From positions 1 through 45,041 of the forward strand of contig SLCC01000002.1 of the NCBI GenBank assembly GCA_007126035.1: a stretch of 45,041 bases of DNA, read 5' to 3'. A program made the position numbers and the translations under genes. Shown piece by piece: positions 17,380 to 33,030 of the stretch (position 1 is the first letter of the stretch; every line of letters begins with the position of its first letter). The notes under the pieces were generated by a model that saw only the letters and a program-made list of their open reading frames with translations, had not been told where the DNA came from and did no database searches. This DNA comes from Gemmatimonadota bacterium (lineage in GTDB: Bacteria; Gemmatimonadota; Gemmatimonadetes; Longimicrobiales; RSA9).

Positions 17380-19341
17380 ATGAGGTCGCTGATGGCCACG
17401 GTAACGGTGAAGGACACCGGGACGAAGGCGCGGAAGCCACCCAGGCTCATCGAGACGCGTGAGCATACGGTGGAGATCGTGTCCGACCCGGGTGAGGGCG
17501 CGCAGAAGTGCGGCCAGATCTTCGGTGCAGTTGCGGCGAAGATGGGCAATGGCGCGTGGACGGTGGAGCTGATTCCTGCCGAGATCCAGCCGCCGCCACG
17601 GATTCCTGCGGGTGCGAGCGGTAACCGGATCCGGATCGGATCGGGCCCTGTAACGAACTGGGGCGACCACGCGAACGTGGTGGTGGCCTTCAACGAGCAG
17701 GTCCTGCTGAACCGGCATCGGGTTGACGGCCTGGCGGAAGACGCGGTGGTGCTCCTCGAGAACATGTGGAAGGAGCATCCGGACGAGACGATCCGCAAGC
17801 AGTGGGTCGCGGCGATGAAGGAGATCTCGTCGAAGCGGTACCGTGTGATCGAGGTGCCCATGGACGAGCTCTGCCGGACGGTGGTGGAGGATCCGCGCAA
17901 GGGCAAGAACATGTTCGTGCTGGGCGTCCTGTCGTGGATCTACCAGCGTGACATGGATCTGGTCCGTGACCAGATCGGCTTCGCCTTCCGGACCAAGTCC
18001 GAGGAGATCTACGAGAAGAACGTCGCCCTGCTCGAGCTGGGCTACGGCTGGGCGGAGGAGAACCTGGACTTCCAGGTCCTGATTGCGCCCGAGGCGCCGG
18101 ACGTGCCCATGGTGGTGATGAACGGGAACCAGGCGGTGGCGCTGGGCGCGGCGGCGGCTGGTTTCGAGATGACGGCCATGTACCCCATCACGCCGGCCAC
18201 TTCCGCCTCCTTCCTGCTGGGCGAGATGTTCCAGGACTTCGGCGGCATTCTGCACCAGGCGGAGGACGAGATCGCCGCGGTGGGCGTGGCGGTCGGCGCT
18301 TCGTACGCGGGCAAGACGGCGCTGACCATCACCTCCGGACCGGGGCTGGCTCTGAAGACGGAGTTCCTGGGGCTGGCGGCCATGACCGAGGTGCCGCTGG
18401 TGGTGGTGGACGTGCAGCGGGGCGGCCCGGCCACGGGTTTGCCGACGAAGGTGGAGCAGAGCGATCTGCTGGCCTCGCTGTTCGGTCAGCCGGGCGACGC
18501 GCCCCACGTGGTGATGGCGGCGGCAACCATCGAGGACTGTTTCCACTCCATGGTCACCGCTCGCCGGATCGCCGAGACGTTCCGGATGCTGGTGATCGTG
18601 CTGACGGACGCGAACCTGGCCACGGGCGTGCAGCCGTTCCCCCGTCCCGACCCGCAGCTGAGCTGGATCGCGCCGCCCATCGACCAGTCCCCGGTGCCGC
18701 CGGACGTGCGGCCGTACGACTGGGATCCCAAGACGGGCCTGAGTCGGCGCTTCATCCCCGGCCAGCCTGGCGGCATGCACACGGTGACGGGGCTCCAGCA
18801 TGACGAGAACAGCAAGGTGGCCTACTCGTCGGACGTGGTGCAGCGCAGTTCCACCATGCGTAGCCGCAAGCTGGCGGTCCTACAGCAGGCCCTGACGCCG
18901 CCGGAGGTGCATGGCGACGACGAGGGCGACCTGCTGGTGGTGGGCTGGGGCAGCACCAAGGGCGCCATCGAGGAGGCGGTTGACCGGACCCGCGAGGAAG
19001 GGCTGTCCGTCTCGTCGCTCCACCTCCGCTTCCTCTCGCCCCTCGAGCCGGGGCTGAAGGAGATCTTCAGCCGGTTCAAGCGGGTGATGACAGTGGAGAT
19101 CAACTACAGCGACGACCTGGGTGATCCGTACATCACGGAGGAGAACCGTCGCTATGGCCAGCTGGCCTGGCTGCTCCGGGCCCATACCCTGGTGGACGTC
19201 GACTGCTGGACCCGCGTCCTGGGCGAGCCGCTCCGGCCGGGCAGCATCCATGACGCCATCGTGGGCCGACTGGTCCGCGACGGCAAGATCGGCAGCGCCC
19301 CGCGCCGAGGTAAGAAGCAGGGGAAGGGAGGTGCCGCATGA
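17380..19341 (+). CDS. korA: 2-oxoacid:ferredoxin oxidoreductase, alpha subunit (gamma-alpha fusion)
   Basis: With KorB it should oxidise a 2-oxoacid, most likely 2-oxoglutarate, to the acyl-CoA while reducing ferredoxin. The 653 residues comprise an N-terminal gamma domain (about 30-230), then the pyrimidine-binding alpha domain with MYPITPATSAS and the HQAEDEIAAVGVAVGASYAG segment, and a C-terminal domain that starts near the DLLVVGWGSTKGAIEEAV stretch (about 515). This is the KorA architecture of aerobic and microaerophilic bacteria. ATG 17380 and ATG 17392 are both possible; neither has a clear ribosome site. The end overlaps korB by four bases (ATGA). Confidence 0.93.
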   Translation: MRSLMATVTVKDTGTKARKPPRLIETREHTVEIVSDPGEGAQKCGQIFGAVAAKMGNGAWTVELIPAEIQPPPRIPAGASGNRIRIGSGPVTNWGDHANVVVAFNEQVLLNRHRVDGLAEDAVVLLENMWKEHPDETIRKQWVAAMKEISSKRYRVIEVPMDELCRTVVEDPRKGKNMFVLGVLSWIYQRDMDLVRDQIGFAFRTKSEEIYEKNVALLELGYGWAEENLDFQVLIAPEAPDVPMVVMNGNQAVALGAAAAGFEMTAMYPITPATSASFLLGEMFQDFGGILHQAEDEIAAVGVAVGASYAGKTALTITSGPGLALKTEFLGLAAMTEVPLVVVDVQRGGPATGLPTKVEQSDLLASLFGQPGDAPHVVMAAATIEDCFHSMVTARRIAETFRMLVIVLTDANLATGVQPFPRPDPQLSWIAPPIDQSPVPPDVRPYDWDPKTGLSRRFIPGQPGGMHTVTGLQHDENSKVAYSSDVVQRSSTMRSRKLAVLQQALTPPEVHGDDEGDLLVVGWGSTKGAIEEAVDRTREEGLSVSSLHLRFLSPLEPGLKEIFSRFKRVMTVEINYSDDLGDPYITEENRRYGQLAWLLRAHTLVDVDCWTRVLGEPLRPGSIHDAIVGRLVRDGKIGSAPRRGKKQGKGGAA

Positions 19342-20291
19342 TCGCGACCTGTTCGCTGCTCCAGGCAAGCCTCGGCGGCGATGAGCGGGTGTTCTCCATG
19401 CAGGACTACGAGGGCGCCCAGGCCCGCTGGTGCTCCGGCTGCGGGGACCACGCGGTCCTCACCGCTGCCCAGCGGCTCCTGGCCGAGGAGCAGTTGAAGC
19501 CGGAGACCACCGTCTTCGTGTCGGGCATCGGCTGCTCGAGCCGGTTCCCCCACTACATGCGGACATACGGCTTCCACGGGCTCCACGGCCGGGCGCTGCC
19601 CGTAGCTACCGGGATCAAGCTCCACCGCCCCGACCTGGACGTGTTCGTGACCATGGGCGACGGCGACTGCACCTCCATCGGTGCCGCCCACTGGATCCAC
19701 GCCATCCGCTACAACATGGACATGGTGGTGGTGATGCTGGACAACGGCATCTACGGGCTGACGAAGAACCAGACGTCGCCCACCACGCCGGAGGGCTACC
19801 CCAGCTACACCCAGCCGCACGGTAGCTTCCTGCCGCCCATGAACCCCTTGCAGGCCACCCTGGGCGTGACCAACGCGTCGTTCGTGGCCCAGACGGCCGA
19901 GTGGGTACCGCAGCACCTGTTCGCCACGCTCCAGGCCGCCAACCGGCACAAGGGCTTCTCCTTTGTACGGATCCTCCAGCGGTGCCCCGAGTACACGCCG
20001 GACCTGTTCCAACTGGCGGTGAAGAAGCCGGACAAGCTGATGCTGATCGAGCATGAGGACGGGGTGCTGGTTCCCGATCTCCACGAGATCTACAAGAACC
20101 GGCGGAGCCATGACCCGCGGGACATCGAGATCGGCCGCCGTCTGGCTGAACAGAACGAGCCCATCCCGCTGGGCGTGCTGTTCCGCGACGAGTCACGGCC
20201 TCGCTACGAGGAGACCCGGCGGGTCCGGAAGTTCTCCGCCGAGGACAAGGTGAAGCGCCTGAACGAGGAGCTTGATACGTATGCCGTTTGA
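19338..20291 (+). CDS. korB: 2-oxoacid:ferredoxin oxidoreductase, beta subunit
   Basis: Thiamine-diphosphate and [4Fe-4S] subunit of the KorAB complex. Cluster cysteines are visible in RWCSGCGDH, GIGCSSRFPHY and LQRCPEY. The thiamine-diphosphate motif runs from MGDGDCTSIG to LDNGIYGLTKNQTSPTTP. At 317 residues it is normal length with about 20 extra residues at the N-terminus. ATG 19338 overlaps the korA stop (ATGA) and has GGGAGG just upstream. The typical KorB pairing with a gamma-alpha KorA supports 2-oxoglutarate as substrate, though pyruvate cannot be excluded. Confidence 0.94.
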   Translation: MIATCSLLQASLGGDERVFSMQDYEGAQARWCSGCGDHAVLTAAQRLLAEEQLKPETTVFVSGIGCSSRFPHYMRTYGFHGLHGRALPVATGIKLHRPDLDVFVTMGDGDCTSIGAAHWIHAIRYNMDMVVVMLDNGIYGLTKNQTSPTTPEGYPSYTQPHGSFLPPMNPLQATLGVTNASFVAQTAEWVPQHLFATLQAANRHKGFSFVRILQRCPEYTPDLFQLAVKKPDKLMLIEHEDGVLVPDLHEIYKNRRSHDPRDIEIGRRLAEQNEPIPLGVLFRDESRPRYEETRRVRKFSAEDKVKRLNEELDTYAV

Positions 20292-21267: not shown

Positions 21268-22110
21268 GTGGACATGGGTCCGATTCTGAGCTCGGCCGCC
21301 GTCCTCGGCGGTGTGGGGTTGACGTTCGGGGTGCTCATCGCCCTGGCGACCAAGACCATGAAGGTCTGGGAGGACCCGCGCATCGATGACGTGGAAGGCA
21401 TGCTGCCGGGCTCGAACTGCGGGGCCTGCGGCGAGGCCGGTTGCCGGGCCTTCGCCGAGTCGGTGATCATGGGCCAGGCCACCCCGGCCCAGTGCACCGT
21501 CATGGGTGAGGCCGACCGGGAGGACGTGGCCGACTACCTGGGCGTGGACGCGGGCGCTGCCGACAAGCGCGTGGCCCGCCTGCTCTGTGCCGGTGGCAGC
21601 GACGTGGCGTTGCAGCGCGCCGACTATTACGGCATCGAGAGCTGCTTCGCCGCCGTCACGGTGGGCGGGGGCGGGAAGGCCTGTGGCTGGGGCTGTGTGG
21701 GTCTCGGCGACTGTGCCGTGGCCTGCGACTTCGAGGCCATCGTGATGAACGAGGTCGGGCTCCCGGTGGTGCTGCCCGCGGAGTGCACCGCGTGCGGTGA
21801 CTGCGTGGATGCGTGTCCGCTGGATCTGTTCACGATCCTGCCCATGGACGCACACCTGATAGTGCAGTGCAGGAACCTGCTGGAAGGCGACGCAGCGGAG
21901 GATGTATGCGCCGTCGCCTGCACCGCGTGCGGTCGCTGCGCGGTCGACGCACCCGCCGGGCTGATCGAGATGCAGGAAGGCCTGGCCGTAGTGGATTACT
22001 CGAAGATCGAGTTGGAAAACAAGGATGCCATCGCCCGCTGTCCTACAGGGGCGATCGCTTGGGTCGAAGGCTCACAGTTCCGTGAGCCCAAAGTCGCAGG
22101 GAGTGTGTGA
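21268..22110 (+). CDS. rnfB: Rnf electron transport complex, ferredoxin-type subunit RnfB
   Basis: Peripheral multi-[4Fe-4S] subunit that receives electrons from ferredoxin. A single N-terminal membrane helix (about 5-27) is followed by the RnfB-specific cluster domain beginning C51 in SNCGACGEAGC. Further cysteine groups are KACGWGCVGLGDC, ECTACGDCVDACP, and CTACGRCAVDAP with a later RCPTGAI. In the third group the usual CP is replaced by AP, so that cluster may borrow the later cysteine. About 280 residues resembles the longer RnfB of acetogens and Bacteroidetes-like complexes. GTG 21268 directly follows the preceding stop; ATG 21274 fits the GGGAGGA ribosome site better. It overlaps the next gene by one base. 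Confidence 0.92.
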   Translation: MDMGPILSSAAVLGGVGLTFGVLIALATKTMKVWEDPRIDDVEGMLPGSNCGACGEAGCRAFAESVIMGQATPAQCTVMGEADREDVADYLGVDAGAADKRVARLLCAGGSDVALQRADYYGIESCFAAVTVGGGGKACGWGCVGLGDCAVACDFEAIVMNEVGLPVVLPAECTACGDCVDACPLDLFTILPMDAHLIVQCRNLLEGDAAEDVCAVACTACGRCAVDAPAGLIEMQEGLAVVDYSKIELENKDAIARCPTGAIAWVEGSQFREPKVAGSV

Positions 22111-25100
22111 TGAGAAACCCGTTTGCCAAGAAGGACCAGCCGAAGAGCGAGCCGCGTTTCCCGGGGCAGCCGCAGGCAATCGATGGCAGTGAAGCTGTCA
22201 TCTGGATGGAAGTCGCCGCAAGCGAGGCTGCGGGTGCGTACCCGATCACTCCGTCGACCCAGATGGGCGAAGGGTGGGCCCTCGCCCAGGCGCACGGCAT
22301 GACCAACGTGAACGGCCGCCGGCTGCTCTTCTTCGAGCCGGAGGGCGAGCACGCCGCCGCGGGCGTCACCGCCGGGATGAGCATGGTGGGCCTCAGGGCC
22401 ACCAACTTCTCCAGCGGCCAGGGCATCGCGTACATGCACGAGAGCCTCTATGCCGCCGTCGGCAAGCGGCTCACCTACGTGCTCAACATCGCCGCCCGGG
22501 CCATGACCAAGCACGCGCTGAACGTGCACGCCGGCCACGATGACTACCACTGCATCGACGACACCGGCTTCGTCCAGTTCTTCGCCAAGGACGTCCAGAG
22601 CACGGCGGACCTGAACCTGATCGCCCACAAGGTGGCGGAGCTCTCGCTGAACCCGGCGGCGCTGGCGCAGGACGGCTTCCTGACGAGCCACGTCATCGAG
22701 AACATCATGATGCCCGAGCGGGAGCTGGTGAAGGAGTACCTGGGCGACCCGTCCGACATCATCGAGTCACCGACGCCGGCCCAGCGGCTGGTGTTCGGCG
22801 AGGAGCGCCGTCGCATCCCCGAGCTCTTCGACCTGGACTATCCCGCCATGCTGGGCACGGTCCAGAACCAGGACAGCTACGCCCAGGGCGTGGCGGCGCA
22901 GCGGCCCTTCTACTTCGACCACGTCCAGGCCCTCACGGACCAGGCCATGGCCGAGTACGGCGAGCTCACCGGCCGGCACTACGACCGGGCCATGGGCTAC
23001 AAGCTCGAGGACGCCGACTACGTCCTGCTGGGCCAGGGCTCCGTGATCGGCAACGCCGAGACGGTGGCCGACTACATGCGCGAGGAGATGGGGCTCAAGG
23101 TGGGCGTGCTGGACATGGTCATGTTCCGGCCCTTCCCGTCGGACCTGATCGCCGGCATGCTGGCCGGCAAGAAGGCGGTGACGGTCCTGGAGCGGACCGA
23201 CCAGCCCCTGGCCGTGGACGCGCCCATGCTGCGTGAGATCCGCGCCGCCATGGCCAAGGCCGTGGAGAACGGCCGCGCCGCCAGCAACGGCAGGACCGCC
23301 CGCGAGAACGGACGCGTGCCCCACCCCGGCATCCCGGCCATCTCCGCCGACCAGGTGCCCGACTTCTTCAGCGGTGGCTTCGGCTTCGGTAGCCGTGACC
23401 TCCAGCCCGGCGACCTGGTCGCCGCGGCCAAGAACATGACGGACGACGGCAAGCAGCGCCGTCAGTTCTATCTGGGCATCGACTTCGTCCGCAAGAAGAC
23501 CAGGCTGCCCAAGCTCGAGGTCTGGCAGGAACAGCTCGTGGAGTCCTATCCGCACCTCAAGGACCTGGCCCTCGAGCCGGAGCCCGGGCTGAACCTTCTG
23601 CCCGACGGGACCATCGCCATCCGGATCCACTCGGTGGGTGGCTGGGGCGCCATCACCATGGGCAAGAACGTCTCGCTCACGGCCTTCGAGTTGGCGGGGC
23701 TCAGCATCAAGGCGAACCCCAAGTACGGCTCCGAGAAGAAGGGCCAGCCCACCACGTTCTACGCCACGCTGTCGAAGGAGCCGGTGAAGATCAACGCCGA
23801 GCTCAAGAACGTGGACGTGGTGCTGTCCCCGGACACGAACGTCTTCCGCCACTCGAACCCCTTGGCGGGGATGAGCCGGGGCGGCGTCTTCGTGATCCAG
23901 AGCGACATGAAGCCCGAGGTCCTGTGGCGGCAGTTCCCGGAGGAGGCCAAGGCCTTCATCAGGGCCAACGACATCAAGGTCTACGCACTGGACGGCTTCA
24001 AGATCGCGGCCGAGGAGGCCAGCGACCCGGAGCTCCGCTACCGGATGCAGGGTGCCGCCTTCATGGGCGCCTTCTTCAACGTCTCGCCCCTGGCACAGCG
24101 AGAGGGCCTGAACGAGTCCACCCTCTTCGCCGGGATCCGCGACCAGATGCAGCGGAAGTTCGGCAAGCTGGGTGAGCGGGTGGTGGAGGACAACGTCCGC
24201 GTCATCCGCCGGGGCTACGACGAGCTGGTCGAGGTGGCCGGCGCCGAGGCCGACTCCGCCGACGGCTCGGCGACGCTGCCCGTGGCCCAGGTGCCGGACA
24301 TGATGAACGTGCCCGAGGCCCACGTGGGCGTCGGCAACCCGGGCCGCTTCTTCGAACAGGTCTGCTCGGTCTACAAGGCCGGCGAGGAGCCGATCGCCGA
24401 TCCGTTCGCCGCCATCAGCGCCATGCCGGCGGCCAGCAGCGTGATCCGGGACATGACCGACATCCGGTTCGAGGTCCCTGACTTCATCGCCGAGAAGTGC
24501 ACCGGTTGCGCCCAGTGCTGGGTCCAGTGCCCCGACTCGGCGATCCCCGGGCTGGTCAACAGTATCGAGGACATCCTGGAGACGGCCATGGCGGCGGCCC
24601 GCAACGGCCGGTCCCTGGAGCGGCTGGGCCAGGTCAGCAGGCACCTGGTCAAGGAGACCCACAAGGTGGTGGACGGTGTGCCGTTCTCCACCTTCGGCGA
24701 GGCGTTCAAGTCCGCCTACAAGAACATTACCGGCAAGCTGAACTGGGAGCCGGAGCGGCGGAAGGAGCTGGACGACGACTTCGCCGCCGTCTACTCGATC
24801 CTGGCCGAGTTCCCCCTGGCCAAGACCCAGCCGTTCTGGGACCTGCCGGAGGGCAAGGAGAAGGGGAGCGGCGGACTGCTCTCCATCACGGTGAACCCCG
24901 AGGCGTGCAAAGGCTGCAACGTCTGCGTGGACGTCTGTGCCGACGGCGCCCTGGTCACCATCAAGCAGGACGAGGACGTGGTGGACCGGCTGCGTCGCAA
25001 CTGGTCGTTCTGGAAGAAGCTGCCCGACACGGACAGCCGCTTCATCAACATCCGTGACATGGACGAAGGGATCGGCGTCCTCTCGAGCCTGTTGCTCAAG

Positions 25101-27218
25101 AAGGACAACTACCTGTCCATGGTGGGCGGCGACGGCTCGTGCATGGGCTGCGGCGAGAAGACCACGGTGCACCTGTTCACCGCCACGGTCGAGGCGCTCA
25201 TGCAGCCCCGCGTCGCCCGGTTCATCGAGCGGATCGGCGATCTGATGGCCGGTCTGGACAAGAAGGCCCGTGAGCTGCTGGCCGCCGATGCCGACATCGA
25301 CGTCATGGCCATGACAGAGAACGGCGCGGTGGACGTGCCGGTGAGCGAGGATAAGCGTGCCGAGCTGACCCGGATCGTCTCGACGCTCAAGGCGCTGAAG
25401 GACCTGAAGTGGCGCTACGAGGAGGGTCCGAGCGGTCGCGGCCGGGCCGCCATGGGCATCACGAACAGCACGGGCTGCTCCAGCGTGTGGGGGAGCACCT
25501 ATCCCTTCAACCCGTACCCGTTCCCGTGGGTGAACCACCTGTTCCAGGACGCGCCCTCGGTGGCCATCGGGATCTTCGAGGGCCACGTGCGGAAGATGGG
25601 CGACGCGTTCATCGACGTCCGTCGCGCCGAGAAGCTCCTGGACGGCAGCTACGACGAGGCCAAGGACGAGGCGTTCTTCACCGCCTTCGACTGGAAGCAG
25701 TTCACCGACGAGGAGTTCCACCTGGTCCCGCCCATCACGGCGATCGGTGGCGACGGCGCCATGCTGGACATCGGGTTCCAGAACCTCTCCCGCCTGCTGG
25801 CCAGCGGGAAGCCGATAAGGGTGGTCATGCTCGACACCCAGGTCTACTCGAACACGGGCGGCCAGGCCAGCACCGGCACCTTCACGGGCCAGTCGGCTGA
25901 CATGTCGCCCCACGGCAAGGCCATGCCCGGCAAGTCCGAGGAGCGGAAGGAGCTGGCCTACATCGCAATCGCTCACCGCGGCGCCTACGTCCACCAGACG
26001 TCACAGGCCTCGCCCAGCCACCTGATCGAGGGCGTGATCAAGGGGCTCAACACCCGGCGCCCGTCGGTATTCAGCATCTACACGCCGTGCCCGGTGGAGC
26101 ACGGGCTGCCGGACGAGTGGGCGCCCACCAGCGCGCGGTTGGCGCTGGAGAGCAGGGCGTTCCCCTTCGTCACATACGACCCGGACGGCGGCGATACGCT
26201 GGCGGACTGCATGAGCCTGGACGGCAACCCCAGCATCGACGACGCCTGGCCCACGTACGAGCTGAAGTACATGGACGCCGCCGGCGCCGAGAAGACCATG
26301 GAGCTGCCCATGACCATCGCGGACTGGGCCGCTACCGAGACGCGCTTCGCCAAGCAGTTCAAGGAGGTCCCGGAGGACCAGTGGAACGAGGACATGGTCC
26401 CCTTCCACGAGTACCTGATGCTGTCGGCGGAGGACCGGGAGGGTAAGGTGCCCTTCATCCACACGCTGGACCGGGAGAAGCGACTCCAGCGCACGCGGGT
26501 CTCGCAGTCCATCGTCAAGCTGGCCGAGGAGCGGCTCCTCTACTGGAACCAGCTCCGGGAGCTGGCCGGTCACCGCGTGCCCGAGTGGGTCCGTGACGGT
26601 ATCGCCGGGGAGATGGAGGAAGAACTCGAGGCCAAGGTGGCCCAGGCCCGCAAGGAGTTCGAGGCCAAGCTCCAAGAGCTCAAGGTCACCTACCCGCGGA
26701 TCATCGCCAGGCGGTTGGCCGAAGGGCTGGTCCGTTCCGGTAAGGCCGGACGCACCGTGGCCGAGCTGCTGGAGACGGCCGAGTCGACACCGAACCTCGA
26801 GCCTATCGGCGCCGACGTCGGTGGGCTCCCAACAGCCACGGCCCCGGCACCCGCCGCAGAGGCGGCGCCGGCGGCCGAGGCGGGGAACGGTGGCGGCGTG
26901 GCCGTGGCTCCCGCCAAGACCGAGGTGGCGGCCCCAGCGCCCGCCGAGGACGAAGAGGACGACGAGCTGGGGCTCGAGCCGTACATCGAGACCGCGCGTT
27001 GCACCACGTGCGATGACTGCATCCGCATCAACAACCGATTGTTCAAGTACAACGACAAGAAGCAGGCGGTCATAGCCGACCTGAAGGCTGGCACCTTCGC
27101 CGAGCTGGTGCGCGCCGCGGAGAAGTGCCCCGTGGGGATCATCCACCCCGGGACACCGATCAACAAGAAGGAGAAGGACCTGGAGAAGTGGATGAAGCGG
27201 GCTGAGCCCTTCAACTGA
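22110..27218 (+). CDS. nifJ: Giant NifJ-type pyruvate (2-oxoacid):ferredoxin oxidoreductase with extra C-terminal ferredoxin domain
   Basis: A 1702-residue single-chain oxidoreductase, about 500 residues longer than usual NifJ/PFOR. Domain I starts with AGAYPITPSTQMGE near residue 42. Two ferredoxin-like clusters lie at C797 (KCTGCAQCWVQC) and C933 (CKGCNVCVDVC). The proximal cluster appears as C1011 and C1014 (SCMGCGEKT), C1123 (NSTGCSSVWGS) and C1327 (YTPCPVEHG). The thiamine-diphosphate motif is GGDGAMLD (D1215) and VYSNTGGQ. Between C1014 and C1123 there are 108 residues, against 24 in the Desulfovibrio africanus enzyme, so an insertion of about 84 residues is present. After the normal end comes a helical segment (about 1460-1560), an Ala/Pro-rich linker (about 1570-1620) and a ferredoxin-like module (CTTCDDC at 1631, CPVG at 1673). 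ATG 22110 overlaps the rnfB stop (TGATG) with GGGAG upstream. Confidence 0.9.
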   Translation: MRNPFAKKDQPKSEPRFPGQPQAIDGSEAVIWMEVAASEAAGAYPITPSTQMGEGWALAQAHGMTNVNGRRLLFFEPEGEHAAAGVTAGMSMVGLRATNFSSGQGIAYMHESLYAAVGKRLTYVLNIAARAMTKHALNVHAGHDDYHCIDDTGFVQFFAKDVQSTADLNLIAHKVAELSLNPAALAQDGFLTSHVIENIMMPERELVKEYLGDPSDIIESPTPAQRLVFGEERRRIPELFDLDYPAMLGTVQNQDSYAQGVAAQRPFYFDHVQALTDQAMAEYGELTGRHYDRAMGYKLEDADYVLLGQGSVIGNAETVADYMREEMGLKVGVLDMVMFRPFPSDLIAGMLAGKKAVTVLERTDQPLAVDAPMLREIRAAMAKAVENGRAASNGRTARENGRVPHPGIPAISADQVPDFFSGGFGFGSRDLQPGDLVAAAKNMTDDGKQRRQFYLGIDFVRKKTRLPKLEVWQEQLVESYPHLKDLALEPEPGLNLLPDGTIAIRIHSVGGWGAITMGKNVSLTAFELAGLSIKANPKYGSEKKGQPTTFYATLSKEPVKINAELKNVDVVLSPDTNVFRHSNPLAGMSRGGVFVIQSDMKPEVLWRQFPEEAKAFIRANDIKVYALDGFKIAAEEASDPELRYRMQGAAFMGAFFNVSPLAQREGLNESTLFAGIRDQMQRKFGKLGERVVEDNVRVIRRGYDELVEVAGAEADSADGSATLPVAQVPDMMNVPEAHVGVGNPGRFFEQVCSVYKAGEEPIADPFAAISAMPAASSVIRDMTDIRFEVPDFIAEKCTGCAQCWVQCPDSAIPGLVNSIEDILETAMAAARNGRSLERLGQVSRHLVKETHKVVDGVPFSTFGEAFKSAYKNITGKLNWEPERRKELDDDFAAVYSILAEFPLAKTQPFWDLPEGKEKGSGGLLSITVNPEACKGCNVCVDVCADGALVTIKQDEDVVDRLRRNWSFWKKLPDTDSRFINIRDMDEGIGVLSSLLLKKDNYLSMVGGDGSCMGCGEKTTVHLFTATVEALMQPRVARFIERIGDLMAGLDKKARELLAADADIDVMAMTENGAVDVPVSEDKRAELTRIVSTLKALKDLKWRYEEGPSGRGRAAMGITNSTGCSSVWGSTYPFNPYPFPWVNHLFQDAPSVAIGIFEGHVRKMGDAFIDVRRAEKLLDGSYDEAKDEAFFTAFDWKQFTDEEFHLVPPITAIGGDGAMLDIGFQNLSRLLASGKPIRVVMLDTQVYSNTGGQASTGTFTGQSADMSPHGKAMPGKSEERKELAYIAIAHRGAYVHQTSQASPSHLIEGVIKGLNTRRPSVFSIYTPCPVEHGLPDEWAPTSARLALESRAFPFVTYDPDGGDTLADCMSLDGNPSIDDAWPTYELKYMDAAGAEKTMELPMTIADWAATETRFAKQFKEVPEDQWNEDMVPFHEYLMLSAEDREGKVPFIHTLDREKRLQRTRVSQSIVKLAEERLLYWNQLRELAGHRVPEWVRDGIAGEMEEELEAKVAQARKEFEAKLQELKVTYPRIIARRLAEGLVRSGKAGRTVAELLETAESTPNLEPIGADVGGLPTATAPAPAAEAAPAAEAGNGGGVAVAPAKTEVAAPAPAEDEEDDELGLEPYIETARCTTCDDCIRINNRLFKYNDKKQAVIADLKAGTFAELVRAAEKCPVGIIHPGTPINKKEKDLEKWMKRAEPFN

Positions 27219-27300: not shown

Positions 27301-28794
27301 ATGGCGACACGGACTGACAGACGGGCACCGAAACGCGGCCTCGCCGGCCTGGGCGAGCTGCTCTTCGGGCCGTCGTTCCGCCACGGAGTGCACCCGCCGG
27401 AGGCGAAGGGGCTGACCGAGGCCCTGCCGATCCGGAGGATGCCGTTCCCCGAGGAGATAGTGCTGCCCCTGCGGCAGCATACGGGCGCACCCTCCAGGGT
27501 GATCGCCTCGGTGGACGACAGGGTCGAGCGCGGTGACGTCCTGGGCGTTGCCGACGGCTACGTCTCGGTGCCCGTCCACGCTTCCGCCTCCGGTGTGATC
27601 AAGGACATCGGCTGGTGGCCCCACCCATCGGGGACCATGGATACGGCGGTGCGGATCCAGGTGGACCGCTTCGCGCCCCAGCTCACCCGGCCGCGCATCG
27701 TGCCGGAGTGGAGAGGCCTCACCCCGGACCAGGTCCGCAAGGCTGTCCAAAACGCCGGTGTGGTAGGCCTCGGGGGCGCGGCCTTCCCCACCCACGTCAA
27801 GCTGAACCCGCCCAAGGAAACGGCCATCGAGGTGTTGCTCATCAACGGCGCCGAATGCGAGCCGTACCTGACCAGCGACCACCGGGTCATGGTCGAGTAC
27901 CCGGAGCGGGTGCATTTCGGGATCCGGGTCATGATGCAGTGCCTGGGCGTAGACCGGGCCGTCATAGGAGTGGAGAACAACAAGCCCGACGCCATCGCCA
28001 GGTTGCGGGAGACGATCCCCGAGGACCTGGACATCGAGGTCATCGGCCTGACGGTCAAGTATCCCCAGGGCGCCGAGAAGATGCTGATCAAGGCGGTGAC
28101 CGGGCGGGAGGTGCCGTCTGGCAAGCTGCCCATGCACGTGGGCGCCGTGGTCCAGAACGTGGGCTCGATTGCCGCCATCGCGGAGGTCTTCGAGACGGGC
28201 TATCCCCTCATCGAGCGGATCGTCACCGTCACGGGCCCTGGCGTCCGCAAGCCGCAGAACCTGATCGTCCCCGTGGGCACGAAGACCCGTGACGTCCTCG
28301 ACTTCTGCGGCGGCCTCACGCCCGACGCCACGGAGGTCATCTTCGGTGGGCCCATGATGGGGGTGCCCCAGCCCGACCTCGACGTGCCGGTCATGAAGGG
28401 CACGTCCGGGATCGTGGTCCTCACGGAGAAGGAATCGGCCCGGCCCCAGGCCCTGGCGTGTATCTCGTGCGCTCGGTGCCTGGCTGCCTGTCCCATGTTC
28501 CTGAACCCGTCGCGCCTGGGCCAGATGGCGCAGCTCGGCCTGTTCGAGCGGATGGCGGAGGAGTACCATCTGGAAGACTGCATGCTCTGCGGGTCCTGCT
28601 CCTACGTCTGTCCGTCCAACATCCCCCTGGCCCAGATGTTCGCACTGGGCAAGGCGGGGCTGCGCCGGGCGCAGCAGCGGGCGAGGGAGGAGCAGGCGGA
28701 GAAGGAGCGGCTGGAGAAGGAGGCGGCGGCCCGAGACCAGGCCGAGCGTGAGGCGGCGCAGGAGCCGGCGAGGAAGGAGAGAGAGGTCGCATGA
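27301..28794 (+). CDS. rnfC: Rnf complex subunit RnfC (NADH-binding)
   Basis: Peripheral subunit carrying the NADH and FMN site and two [4Fe-4S] clusters; it passes electrons to NAD+. Motifs are GLGGAAFPTHVKL (about 155), INGAECEPYL (about 181), and the cluster motifs CISCARCLAACP (C387) and CMLCGSCSYVCP (C427). The C-terminal 50 residues are a charged Arg/Glu/Ala coil. ATG 27301 has AGGAG five bases upstream; a GTG at 27298 is less well spaced. The 82-base gap after nifJ is the longest inside the rnfB-rnfA stretch and shows no clear promoter. The end overlaps rnfD by four bases. Confidence 0.95.
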   Translation: MATRTDRRAPKRGLAGLGELLFGPSFRHGVHPPEAKGLTEALPIRRMPFPEEIVLPLRQHTGAPSRVIASVDDRVERGDVLGVADGYVSVPVHASASGVIKDIGWWPHPSGTMDTAVRIQVDRFAPQLTRPRIVPEWRGLTPDQVRKAVQNAGVVGLGGAAFPTHVKLNPPKETAIEVLLINGAECEPYLTSDHRVMVEYPERVHFGIRVMMQCLGVDRAVIGVENNKPDAIARLRETIPEDLDIEVIGLTVKYPQGAEKMLIKAVTGREVPSGKLPMHVGAVVQNVGSIAAIAEVFETGYPLIERIVTVTGPGVRKPQNLIVPVGTKTRDVLDFCGGLTPDATEVIFGGPMMGVPQPDLDVPVMKGTSGIVVLTEKESARPQALACISCARCLAACPMFLNPSRLGQMAQLGLFERMAEEYHLEDCMLCGSCSYVCPSNIPLAQMFALGKAGLRRAQQRAREEQAEKERLEKEAAARDQAEREAAQEPARKEREVA

Positions 28795-29858
28795 GGCCGT
28801 GGCGCGGGACGGGTTGGGAGGATCGCTCCGGCGGGGAAGGCACCATGGAGGAGCCTCGGCTCCGACTCATGGCGGCGCCCCACCTGCACGCCCAGGACTC
28901 CACCGCCCGGATCATGTGGTCCGTGGTGGCCACCCTGGTGCCGGTGGTGCTCGCCGCTGTCTGGTTCTTCGGCGCCGGCGTGCTCCTGGTCATCGGGGCC
29001 GCAATGCTCGGCGCCATGCTGGTCGAGCGACTGCTGGGACCCGGCGGCGCCATACGCGACGGCTCGGCGGCCATCACCGGGCTCCTGCTCGGGCTGACGC
29101 TGCCGCCCGGCTTCCCGCTCTGGATGGCGTTCATCGGCGGCGCCTTCGGCATCGGGTTCGGCAAGCTCATCTTCGGTGGACTGGGCCAGAACATCTTCAA
29201 CCCGGCACTCCTGGGCCGGGCTTTCCTCCAGGCGGCATTCCCCACCGCCATCACCACCTGGCCCGCCGTACGGCCCGGTGAGGTGCTGACGTTCCAGGGC
29301 GACCTGCTCGCGGCGCCGCTCATGACGCCCGCCGAGGTGGACGTGGTCACGCAGGCCACGCCGCTCGGCCTCTGGAAGTTCGAGGGCGAGGTCACCGGGC
29401 TCTGGGACCTCTTTGTGGGTGCCACCGGCGGGTCGCTGGGCGAGACATCCGCTATCCTGATCCTGCTGGGCGGCGCCTACCTCGTGGCCCGCAACTACAT
29501 GAACTGGCGGATCCCGGTCGGGATATTCGCCACCGTGGGACTGCTCTCGATCCTTTTCGGACTGTTCGATCCCACATTCCCGGGGCCGCTGTTCATGATC
29601 TTCTCCGGCGGCCTCGTGCTGGGCGCCGTCTACATGGCCACGGACATGGTCACGTCACCCATCACCAACGGCGGCGCGTGGATATTCGCCTTCGGGATCG
29701 GGTTCCTCGTGGTCCTGATCCGTGGCTGGGGCGGGCTGCCCGAGGGCGTTATGTACGCGATCCTCATCATGAACGCGCTGGTGCCGTTCATCGAGCGGAT
29801 CACTCAGCCCCGGGTCTTCGGTAAGGAGCGCGGAGTGAAGAAGGCGGAGGCGGCATGA
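28791..29858 (+). CDS. rnfD: Rnf complex membrane subunit RnfD
   Basis: Integral membrane subunit with covalent FMN. It has about ten hydrophobic helices, starting near residue 43 (IMWSVVATLVPVVLAAVWFF). The FMN-attachment threonine is T190 in VVTQATPLG, close to the position known in RnfD/NqrB relatives. The conserved QNIFNPALLGRAFL segment lies near 136. ATG 28791 gives an ATGA overlap with rnfC; an internal ATG at 28845 would match the usual RnfD N-terminus, so the true start is uncertain. Confidence 0.94.
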   Translation: MRPWRGTGWEDRSGGEGTMEEPRLRLMAAPHLHAQDSTARIMWSVVATLVPVVLAAVWFFGAGVLLVIGAAMLGAMLVERLLGPGGAIRDGSAAITGLLLGLTLPPGFPLWMAFIGGAFGIGFGKLIFGGLGQNIFNPALLGRAFLQAAFPTAITTWPAVRPGEVLTFQGDLLAAPLMTPAEVDVVTQATPLGLWKFEGEVTGLWDLFVGATGGSLGETSAILILLGGAYLVARNYMNWRIPVGIFATVGLLSILFGLFDPTFPGPLFMIFSGGLVLGAVYMATDMVTSPITNGGAWIFAFGIGFLVVLIRGWGGLPEGVMYAILIMNALVPFIERITQPRVFGKERGVKKAEAA

Positions 29859-30622
29859 CCGACGAGCGCAAGGACCTGCCAGTCTCGCCCGAGCAGGCGA
29901 GCACAGGGGAGGGAGGAGGGCCCGACACCGGGCCAGCCTCCGAGACCGATGCCAGACCCCAGCCCGACGCGGGGGAAGTACCCTCCTGGAAGCTGATCGG
30001 GACCCTGGCCTTCGCCGGGGCCCTGGCCGGCATACTCATCGTAGGAGTCTTCAGCTGGGCCGAGCCCCAGATCCTGGAGCACCGGGCCCGCGTGATATCC
30101 GAGGCCGTGGACGAGGTCCTGGCCGGACCGGACCAGGTACAGCGGCTGTTCGTCCTCCCCGACGGGCTGGTCCACGAAGCGCCACCTGGCATGGATACAG
30201 CCCGGGCCGAGAAGGTCTACATGGGGCTCCGTGACGGAGCGCCCGCGGGCTTCGGGATCATCGGCGAGAAGCCGGGCTTCATGGACATCATCCAGATCAT
30301 CTTCGGCTACGACCCGGTCAGCAGAGAGGTCTCGGGGATGCGGGTGCTGGAGAGCAAGGAGACGCCGGGCCTGGGCGACAAGATCTTCAGGGACCTGCGC
30401 TTCGTGCGCGGGTTCGAGGGTGTCCTGGCACCGATCCGGCCCGTACCCGAGGGCGGCCACACCGGCGCGCCCAACGAGGCCGAGCTGATCACCGGCGCGA
30501 CCATCTCCGCCCGGGTGGTCGTCGAGATCATCAACGAGCGGGCGGCCCAGCTCCACGATCGACTCGAGACCTTTGTCGCCACTGGCCTGTGGGACGGTGC
30601 GGGAGAGGGGGGTGCACAATGA
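29855..30622 (+). CDS. rnfG: Rnf complex subunit RnfG (covalent FMN)
   Basis: A 255-residue membrane-anchored periplasmic flavoprotein. A long Pro/Gly/acidic N-terminal tail (1-43) precedes one membrane helix (about 46-66). The FMN_bind domain ends in ELITGATISARV, where T216 should carry the FMN. The KETPGLGDKI segment is typical of RnfG. The extended cytoplasmic tail is longer than in many RnfG proteins. It overlaps rnfD (ATGA) and rnfE (ATGA). Confidence 0.94.
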   Translation: MTDERKDLPVSPEQASTGEGGGPDTGPASETDARPQPDAGEVPSWKLIGTLAFAGALAGILIVGVFSWAEPQILEHRARVISEAVDEVLAGPDQVQRLFVLPDGLVHEAPPGMDTARAEKVYMGLRDGAPAGFGIIGEKPGFMDIIQIIFGYDPVSREVSGMRVLESKETPGLGDKIFRDLRFVRGFEGVLAPIRPVPEGGHTGAPNEAELITGATISARVVVEIINERAAQLHDRLETFVATGLWDGAGEGGAQ

Positions 30623-31314
30623 GCCCGAGGCAGACCACGCCCACCCAGGACCTGATGCGGGGCGTCTGGAAGGAGAACCCGGTCCTGATCCAGATGCTGG
30701 GGCTCTGTCCCGCACTGGCCGTGACCAACACGGTGATGAACGCCATCGCCATGTCCGCGGCCACCACGTTCGTGCTCCTGGGCAGCAGCCTCCTCATCTC
30801 GCTGCTCAAGAACCACATACCGAAAGAGGTCCGGATCTCCGCCTATATCCTCATCATCGCCACGTTCGTGACGGTGGTGGACTTCTCGTTGAACGCGCTG
30901 GCACCCCTGGTCCACAAGGAGCTGGGCGCGTTCATCGCCCTGATCGTGTGTAACTGCATGATCCTGGCACGGCAGGAGGCGTTCGCGTCCAAACAGCGGG
31001 TCGGCCGCTCGTTGCTGGATGCGGTGGGCACCAGCGCCGGCTTCACCATCGCCCTCCTCATGATGGGCATTTCCCGCGAGGTGCTGGGCAACGGCACGTT
31101 CCTGGGCGTCAACGTCATGGGGCCCCACTTCGAGCCGTGGATCATCATGATCCTGCCGCCCGGCGCCTACTTCGCCATCGGGTTCATTCTCCTGGGCGTC
31201 GGCTACTGGCAGGAACGGAAGCAGCCGCCAACCAAGCGTCCGCGTGATTGGCCGCACGGGGTGAGATCGTCGACCGGGCCCGCGGATTCGCGGCGGGAAA
31301 GGCAGGTGGCATGA
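30619..31314 (+). CDS. rnfE: Rnf complex membrane subunit RnfE
   Basis: A 231-residue six-helix membrane subunit. C30 in QMLGLCPALAVTN and C113 in IVCNCMILAR correspond to the cysteines that, with two from RnfA, hold the iron centre at the RnfA/RnfE interface in characterised complexes. ATG 30619 overlaps the rnfG stop (ATGA), which decides the start over an in-frame upstream codon at 30589. The C-terminal tail is Arg-rich. Confidence 0.94.
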   Translation: MSPRQTTPTQDLMRGVWKENPVLIQMLGLCPALAVTNTVMNAIAMSAATTFVLLGSSLLISLLKNHIPKEVRISAYILIIATFVTVVDFSLNALAPLVHKELGAFIALIVCNCMILARQEAFASKQRVGRSLLDAVGTSAGFTIALLMMGISREVLGNGTFLGVNVMGPHFEPWIIMILPPGAYFAIGFILLGVGYWQERKQPPTKRPRDWPHGVRSSTGPADSRRERQVA

Positions 31315-31889
31315 TGGGAGACCTCCTCTTCATCTTCGTCTCGGCGCTGGTGATCAACAACTTCACCCTGGCGCTGTTCCTGGGGCTCTGCCCCTTCATG
31401 GGCGTGTCGGCGCGGGTGGCCACGGCGGTGAGGCTGGGCATGGCCAACATCTTCATCATGCTCATCACCGCCCTGTGCGCCTGGTTCCTCAACACCTACA
31501 TCCTGGAGAACATGCCGTATCTCCGGCTGATCTCCTTCATCGTCATCATCGCCTCGCTGGTGCAGATCACCGAGGTCACGATCAAGAAGATCAGCCCCAA
31601 GCTGTTCCGGGAGCTGGGGATCTTCCTGCCCCTGATCACCACCAACTGCGCGATCCTGGGCCTGGCAATCTTCCAGACGAACCGGGGCTACGACTTCGCC
31701 CAGGGAATGGTCTTCGCCCTGGGCGCGGGGCTCGGCGTCACCCTGGCCCTGGTCCTCATGGCCTCCATCCGTGAGAGACTCCAGTTCTCCTCGGTACCCT
31801 CCCTGGCCAAGGGGGTAGGTATGGTGATGATCCTCGCCGGTAGCCTGTCGCTGGCGTTCATGGGCTTCGCGGGACTGTTCTCGGCATGA
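31311..31889 (+). CDS. rnfA: Rnf complex membrane subunit RnfA
   Basis: A 192-residue six-helix membrane subunit, normal length. C27 in LFLGLCPFMGVS and C113 in LITTNCAILGLA are the expected iron-centre ligands that pair with those of RnfE. ATG 31311 overlaps the rnfE stop (ATGA), which rules out the longer frame starting at 31248. It also overlaps the next small gene by four bases. Confidence 0.95.
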   Translation: MMGDLLFIFVSALVINNFTLALFLGLCPFMGVSARVATAVRLGMANIFIMLITALCAWFLNTYILENMPYLRLISFIVIIASLVQITEVTIKKISPKLFRELGIFLPLITTNCAILGLAIFQTNRGYDFAQGMVFALGAGLGVTLALVLMASIRERLQFSSVPSLAKGVGMVMILAGSLSLAFMGFAGLFSA

Positions 31890-32029
31890 CCACGGTACTG
31901 GGGATCATGGCCTTCGCGGTGCTCTTCGCCGCCTTCGCGTTCATGGGGCCGGTACTGCTCAGGAAGATGCTCTGCGGTGGCGGTGGCTGCGGCTCGTGCC
32001 GCGCCGGCTCGTGCAAATACACGGAGTAG
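31886..32029 (+). CDS. 47-residue membrane peptide with Cys/Gly-rich tail (NqrM-like candidate)
   Basis: A small gene between rnfA and apbE. One hydrophobic helix (about 5-24) is followed by basic LLRK and a cysteine-rich tail: CGGGGCGSCRAGSC, four cysteines in 14 residues. ATG 31886 overlaps the rnfA stop in the same ATGA manner as the preceding rnf genes, which supports real translation. Known analogues of this shape are NqrM, a small Cys-containing membrane protein needed to mature the iron centre of Na+-NQR and encoded beside apbE, and FeoB-associated Cys-rich peptides. I infer delivery of iron to the RnfA/RnfE centre; homology to NqrM cannot be shown at this length. Confidence 0.8.
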   Translation: MTTVLGIMAFAVLFAAFAFMGPVLLRKMLCGGGGCGSCRAGSCKYTE

Positions 32030-32037
32030 GGAATACG

Positions 32038-33030
32038 ATGAATCAGCGTGACGATCACCGGCGGCCCTCGCGCCGCGAGTTCCTGGCCCTCGGCCTCGGC
32101 GCCTTCGTGGTGGCCGCCACGCCGGGGGTGATCCGGCCAAAGCGGCAGCTGGTTCGCCGCTCGGTACCGCTCATGGGCACCATCGCCGAAGTGGGCGTGG
32201 TCCACCGGGACCAGCGCTACGCACAGGGCGCAATCGACGCGGCCATCGCCGAGCTACGCTCAGTCGAGAGCACCATGACCCGCTTCCGCGACGACTCGGA
32301 CGTGGGACGCGCGAACCTGCAAGCCGCCCGCGGCCCAGTGGCCCTGGGCAGCGCTACCGCAGGAGTCCTGGCCGTCAGCCTGGCCTGGGCCGAGCGGAGC
32401 GACGGCGCCTTCGACCCCACCATCGGTGGCGCGGTCAGGCTGTGGGATGTGGCCAATCGCCACGCCCCGCCGAGTGACACGGACGTGCGCCGCCTGGCGG
32501 ACCGGGGGCTCTATCGGTCCCTCGAACTGGGCCGGCACAACGGCCAGGACGTGGTCCTCTTCCACGAACCGGAGATCGCCCTGGACCTGGGCGGCATCGC
32601 CAAGGGCTACGGCGTCGACCGCGCCGTCGCCGTCCTGCGGGAATGGGGCGTCACCGACGCCCTCGTCAACCTGGGCGGCGACCTCTACGCCATGGGCCGC
32701 TCCGCAACAGACGACGAGTGGGATGTGGGCGTCCGGGACCCGGATGACCCCAACGCTCTGGCCGCCCGCTTCAGCATCAGCGACCACGCCGTCGCCACTT
32801 CCGGTGATTACCACCAGTACTTCGAGCACGGCGGACAGCGCTACCACCACCTCCTGGACCCGAGCACGGGCGCGCCACGACGCGCTCGGGTACGGAGCTT
32901 GACAGTCACCGCGGACGCTTGCATGTCCGCCGACGCCGCCGCCACAGCAGCCTTCGGACGGGAGATGGCCGCTGCGCAGCGGCTCGTCGCACGGGTCGAT
33001 CCCCGCGCGACCGTGGTACACATTGGCTAG
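32038..33030 (+). CDS. apbE: FAD:protein FMN transferase ApbE, Tat-exported
   Basis: Transfers FMN from FAD to threonine of target proteins, here most likely RnfG and RnfD. The 330-residue protein starts with a twin-arginine signal (RRPSRREFLALGLGAFVV, about 9-26), so it should act on the outer face of the membrane. ApbE signatures include the RRSVPLMGTIAEV start, SVESTMTRFRDDSDVGRAN, and LDLGGIAKGYGVDRAV with NLGGDLYAMG. ATG 32038 follows an AGGGAA ribosome site eight bases after the peptide gene. Encoding ApbE beside its Rnf substrates is common; Tat export rather than a lipoprotein signal is less usual in Gram-negative ApbE. Confidence 0.93.
   Translation: MNQRDDHRRPSRREFLALGLGAFVVAATPGVIRPKRQLVRRSVPLMGTIAEVGVVHRDQRYAQGAIDAAIAELRSVESTMTRFRDDSDVGRANLQAARGPVALGSATAGVLAVSLAWAERSDGAFDPTIGGAVRLWDVANRHAPPSDTDVRRLADRGLYRSLELGRHNGQDVVLFHEPEIALDLGGIAKGYGVDRAVAVLREWGVTDALVNLGGDLYAMGRSATDDEWDVGVRDPDDPNALAARFSISDHAVATSGDYHQYFEHGGQRYHHLLDPSTGAPRRARVRSLTVTADACMSADAAATAAFGREMAAAQRLVARVDPRATVVHIG

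Follow-up and report, generated by a model that had tools for sequence, protein, structure and literature searches.

A long PFOR-type enzyme with a ferredoxin-like tail, encoded within the rnf operon of a Gemmatimonadota bacterium, as a candidate tethered electron donor to Rnf

The Rnf complex is thought to draw its electrons from a soluble ferredoxin pool. Pyruvate:ferredoxin oxidoreductases (PFORs) with a C-terminally fused electron-accepting module are known in eukaryotes: the pyruvate:NADP+ oxidoreductases of Euglena and Cryptosporidium carry a flavodoxin/P450-reductase module that gives NADPH. Here, we describe a long PFOR-type 2-oxoacid oxidoreductase, named NifJL, in which the fused module is instead a ferredoxin tied to rnf genes. 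It is encoded in a 45,041-nucleotide stretch (the window; contig SLCC01000002.1, positions 1 to 45,041, assembly GCA_007126035.1) of a Gemmatimonadota bacterium of the order Longimicrobiales. NifJL shares its domain order, thiamine pyrophosphate (TPP) site and three cluster-binding sites with the NifJ/PFOR enzymes of Desulfovibrio africanus (1b0p/7plm), Moorella (6cin) and E. coli (YdbK), but adds two insertions, a long C-terminal helix, a linker and the fused ferredoxin, and scores far below the equivalog cut-off. The locus encodes all six subunits of the Rnf complex known from Acetobacterium woodii and Clostridium; unlike in those organisms, the rnf genes here are interspersed with those for a PFOR and a degenerate PFOR-beta protein. 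The papers searched contain no description of a PFOR with a ferredoxin-I-like tail that is linked with an rnf operon and accompanied by degenerate PFOR paralogues, and a 2025 review on Rnf, searched as text, mentions no such fusion or operon.

The NifJL gene (22110..27218, + strand) lies between rnfB and rnfC, with its ATG overlapping the TGA of rnfB (TGATG), and translates into 1702 residues plus a stop codon. The single chain matches the Pfam domains POR_N, PFOR_II, POR (gamma) and TPP_enzyme_C and internal Fer4 motifs above their cut-offs, which bears out the preliminary description of a NifJ-like enzyme longer than the standard one. It shows the PFOR domain order and aligns to solved PFORs, and the AlphaFold model of residues 765-1702 matches 6ciq/1b0p. 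Because full-length relatives (57-68% identity) occur widely in Gemmatimonadota, NifJL is not an assembly or frameshift artefact; the long-PFOR family is matched in 66/298 genomes of this phylum, a few of these matches being of a tail-less type. Tailed and tail-less proteins share without exception 12 Fe-S cysteines, the GDG and N at the TPP site and the T/E/R residues of the alpha domain (one T reads as X, unreadable), and 62 aligned homologues show no variation in the TPP motif or in the ligand sets of the three [4Fe-4S] clusters. These include the internal ferredoxin motifs C797/C800/C803/C807 (24498..24530, +; 62/62 homologues) and C933/C936/C939/C943 (24906..24938, +; invariant). Judged by its sequence, NifJL is a PFOR-type enzyme but not a standard NifJ.

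Past the TPP domain, the chain continues with a long helix in the AlphaFold model (residues 1492-1543; 26583..26738, +), an acidic linker rich in Ala and Pro by composition and predicted to be disordered (residues 1563-1617; 26796..26960, +; predicted local distance difference test (pLDDT) <50) and a predicted ferredoxin-I-like [4Fe-4S] domain (residues 1624-1702; 26979..27215, +) with C1631/C1634/C1637/C1673 as putative ligands. The helical segment, Ala/Pro linker and CX2CX2C...CP module originally proposed to follow the normal end of the enzyme are thus recovered by Pfam, composition and model. The tail is predicted to be folded (block pLDDT 80-92), and both Fer4_13 and Fer4_15 match residues 1625-1679 above their gathering scores (26.5 and 26.6 bits). 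Among solved structures, D. africanus ferredoxin I (1dax, E 2.9e-9) comes closest. That protein carries a CX2CX2CXnCP motif and binds its PFOR transiently and with low affinity (PMC10052474). The two share the CX2CX2CXnCP single-cluster fold (1dax, 1fxr) and a connection with a PFOR, whose electron partner ferredoxin I is; however, the NifJL tail is fused to the enzyme, is near-neutral rather than strongly acidic and has an extra conserved C-terminal helix after the ferredoxin core. All four tail cysteines are invariant in 40/40 distinct tailed proteins, in line with the functional role first suggested for them. By these signatures the tail is a single-cluster ferredoxin of the ferredoxin I type, with a predicted bound cluster. 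Strong matches to the tail in 150 Gemmatimonadota genomes fall in the NifJL family only; the remaining matches are weak (E 4e-9 or worse).

The distribution of the tail follows that of rnf. We found 37/40 tailed genes next to rnf genes, and rnfC in 40/40 tailed genomes, with no tailed family member lacking rnfC in its genome among the 40 proteins; the tail-less copies adjoin rnf in 0/20 cases. On the question first raised, whether the long form always sits within rnf operons, most tailed enzymes do and the tail-less long forms do not. Besides Gemmatimonadota, some further soil-type phyla have the tailed enzyme encoded among rnf genes. A tree from which the tail and insertion columns were left out requires one tail gain and one tail loss. 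The protein that lost the tail (L071) pairs with a tailed protein as its sister (support 99), shows no tail remnant and falls in G039, a single-contig genome without rnfC; the genus of G039 yielded no further independent loss. In the class to which the window belongs, all genomes with rnfC also have the long-PFOR family. Genomes of this class with the family and no rnfC match are tail-less (G039, G055, G079, G135, G219 and G270) or have the gene at a contig edge (G131 and G211; a partial rnfC follows in G131). rnfC occurs without the long-PFOR family in six genomes that belong to this phylum but not to this class. Taken together, the sequence comparisons suggest that the tail is specific to Rnf and wires the enzyme to the pump.

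From the domain architecture, the intact catalytic and cluster ligands, the conservation of the tail and its association with rnf, we infer a likely substrate, cluster loading, docking partner, and route and direction of electron flow. The probable reaction of NifJL at its TPP site is the oxidation of pyruvate or of a related 2-oxoacid; the electrons would then pass via three [4Fe-4S] clusters into the ferredoxin-I-like domain fused to the enzyme. Swinging on its linker of ~55 residues, this domain would deliver them to Rnf, most likely to RnfB, and Rnf would then reduce NAD+ and pump ions. The protein U20272 and KorAB, encoded upstream, are probably part of the same assembly. We prefer RnfB as the likelier dock over RnfC because RnfB is named as the ferredoxin-binding subunit in the A. 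woodii structure (PMC11889175). The reading of the tail as a tethered ferredoxin carrier that feeds Rnf, most likely at RnfB, is one that we hold to be reasonably probable; it agrees with the preliminary description of a tethered carrier and is supported by the genomic association, namely the conserved cysteines, rnf adjacency, presence of rnfC and the tail loss. Charge complementarity between tail and RnfB was considered and dropped: a strongly acidic RnfB faces a slightly basic tail in the window, but RnfB charge varies widely across the family and E. coli RsxB is acidic too. An apparent +27 RnfB control (L146) proved to be an open reading frame (ORF) running past rnfB out of frame.

Several observations weigh against a dedicated route from NifJL to Rnf. 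The score of NifJL against the NifJ equivalog model TIGR02176 (380 bits) is far below the cut-off of 911, so pyruvate is not established as its substrate. E1-type 2-oxoacid dehydrogenases are also encoded in the source genome, and the NifJL-Rnf route is therefore probably an alternative branch. A diffusible ferredoxin may still be the carrier. The Fisher test for association of tail and rnf (P-value ~1e-12) overstates the case and is not independent evidence, since phylogenetic independence is small and the association comes down to about two evolutionary events, in effect a single gain and a single loss. rnfC scores above the cut-off in 3/20 genomes with tail-less copies: G657 also holds a tailed copy within an rnf operon, and G343 and G555 combine tail-less copies with a divergent RnfC-like protein. 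Finally, three tailed genes of Acidobacteriota (L116-L118) lie away from rnf genes. These three copies, together with the role of D. africanus ferredoxin I as a general carrier, would fit an ordinary fused ferredoxin that raises the local acceptor concentration and serves cytosolic acceptors or free ferredoxin, the link to rnf being operon heritage. We regard this as unlikely: the three genomes still have rnfC elsewhere, no tailed family member was found without rnf, and the one tail loss of the clade falls in a genome without rnfC. As a separate observation, divergent RnfC-like proteins of 390 residues are encoded together with RnfD-like genes (L166 and L167) in two genomes with only tail-less long PFORs.

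Insertions in NifJL follow a different pattern from that of the tail. Insertion A, a helical bundle not mentioned in the preliminary description (residues ~819-916; 24564..24857, +; pLDDT mostly >90), lies between the two internal ferredoxin motifs, where C807 and C933 are separated by 125 residues versus 45 in E. coli YdbK, or ~80 residues extra. Insertion B (residues 1015-1122; 25152..25475, +) lies between the second and third cysteines of the proximal cluster; the reported spacing of 108 residues is confirmed for C1014-C1123 (versus 24 in E. coli YdbK), and the region is modelled by AlphaFold as two long helices (~1014-1104). Both insertions, in similar place and size, were found in tail-less homologues (~34% identity) without adjacent rnf genes, drawn from Gemmatimonadota and from samples of the phyla of a Bryobacterales (Acidobacteriota) and a Verrucomicrobiales metagenome-assembled genome. 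Because they also occur in these distant homologues unconnected with Rnf, we rejected insertion as an Rnf adaptation, and the original idea of insertion and tail as a joint Rnf feature is not supported; the refuting condition first set, occurrence far from rnf genes, applies to the insertion. By sequence comparison, the insertions are a mark of the long-PFOR family older than its link with Rnf, perhaps with a structural role. A third group of ~1195 residues (L125, L126 and L127) clusters with the long family and lacks both insertions and the tail. At three loci from Verrucomicrobia-labelled genomes (L043, L044 and L046), the PFOR appears as two ORFs of ~700 and 540 residues without a tail; at L046 the contig ends after the first.

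The genes around NifJL all lie on the + strand. Upstream are KorA, a 2-oxoacid:acceptor oxidoreductase alpha subunit (17380..19341; TIGR03710 519 bits, above cut-off), and a KorB-type beta subunit (19338..20291; TIGR02177 235 bits, below the cut-off of 262), which are followed by U20272 and RnfB (21268..22110; TIGR01944 79 bits, above cut-off). Downstream of NifJL lie RnfC (27301..28794; TIGR01945 513 bits), RnfD (28791..29858; TIGR01946 309 bits), RnfG (29855..30622; TIGR01947 70 bits, below the cut-off of 102), RnfE (30589..31314; TIGR01948 216 bits, just above cut-off) and RnfA (31248..31889; TIGR01943 221 bits, cut-off 229), the starts of the last two being likely further in. All six Rnf subunits are thus present in one operon, RnfG and RnfA matching their families though below the strict cut-offs. 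An ApbE-like flavin mononucleotide transferase (31996..33030), homologous to a locus gene named ApbE by NCBIfam and conserved in position, probably flavinylates Rnf subunits. The order KorA-KorB-U-RnfB-NifJL-RnfC-D-G-E-A-ApbE varies hardly at all among Gemmatimonadota; other phyla repeat the block RnfB-NifJL-RnfCDGEA, with no KorAB next to it. Genome G284 holds a second rnf cluster in tandem (L146), which has RnfB and RnfC adjacent with no PFOR between them; its long ORF past rnfB, out of frame, may reflect a sequencing or assembly frameshift.

The orphan subunit U20272 (20281..21267, +) has no match among Pfam and NCBIfam models. Its profile matches the degenerate PFOR-derived protein of locus L165 (hidden Markov model (HMM) E 9e-9), and hhalign aligns it to the beta domain (domain VI) of NifJL (E 7e-5, probability 62), other parts of NifJL giving nothing comparable. 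The AlphaFold model (pLDDT 89) gave no significant match in a Foldseek search; the ten best rows of the structure comparison (VIA) are all PFOR or oxalate-oxidoreductase beta domains, with a best Z of 7.8, a middling value below 8. Its identity therefore rests on HMM, hhalign and structure comparison together, by which U20272 is a relative of the PFOR beta domain. The TPP and cluster ligands are absent, which makes it a degenerate, cofactor-free and non-catalytic homologue. U20272 was found in 56/296 Gemmatimonadota genomes, and all 56 also hold the long enzyme. Elsewhere, a 462-residue degenerate PFOR-beta-like gene lies directly before rnfC in genome G458 (L163, 6307-7692); no RnfB was detected nearby, NrfC/NrfD-like genes are upstream, and the tailed PFOR of G458 is encoded elsewhere.

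A split, degenerate PFOR is seen at L165 (2137-8375), the second rnf cluster of the Acidobacteriota genome G500, which encodes, in this order, KorA, KorB, a 755-residue protein with a degenerate beta domain and a tail, RnfB, a protein of 1049 residues that holds the two internal ferredoxin motifs, and RnfCDGEA. This split PFOR has lost the TPP and proximal-cluster ligands and keeps the eight internal and four tail cysteines; hence, the tail is retained even without PFOR catalysis. At this single locus, the scaffold seems by its conserved ligands to be kept for electron transfer, and KorAB could supply catalysis. The adjacency of KorAB here, where the PFOR is degenerate, and in Gemmatimonadota might indicate that the tail mainly serves KorAB, collecting its electrons, as no ferredoxin subunit is encoded beside KorAB. 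This seems quite improbable, as KorAB is missing from the neighbourhood of most tailed copies in Acidobacteriota and in the phylum of G301, yet rnf and the tail are kept. The C-terminal position of the tail could also suit a structural or oxygen-protection cap rather than an electron carrier, similar to the supposed role of the C-terminal domain of D. africanus PFOR, for which carboxy-terminal deletions have reportedly been studied in relation to stability (work cited in PMC8887894). The ferredoxin-I fold signature, four invariant cysteines, long disordered linker and retention of the tail in the degenerate L165 scaffold make a cap very improbable.

Overall, we suggest that the tail of NifJL is a tethered ferredoxin for Rnf. 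We also put forward, tentatively and as the more doubtful proposal, a membrane-bound 2-oxoacid-oxidising supercomplex in which KorAB, the tailed PFOR and degenerate PFOR-beta scaffolds would sit on Rnf and the tethered ferredoxin would pass electrons to RnfB with no diffusible pool. If the preferred reading is true, Rnf with such a dedicated donor would be a respiratory enzyme fed directly by substrate, and the family would offer a genetically clean set for the study of electron entry at RnfB: tail present, tail lost, and catalysis lost but tail kept. It would also suggest low-potential chemistry without exposed free reduced ferredoxin in bacteria that may live with oxygen.

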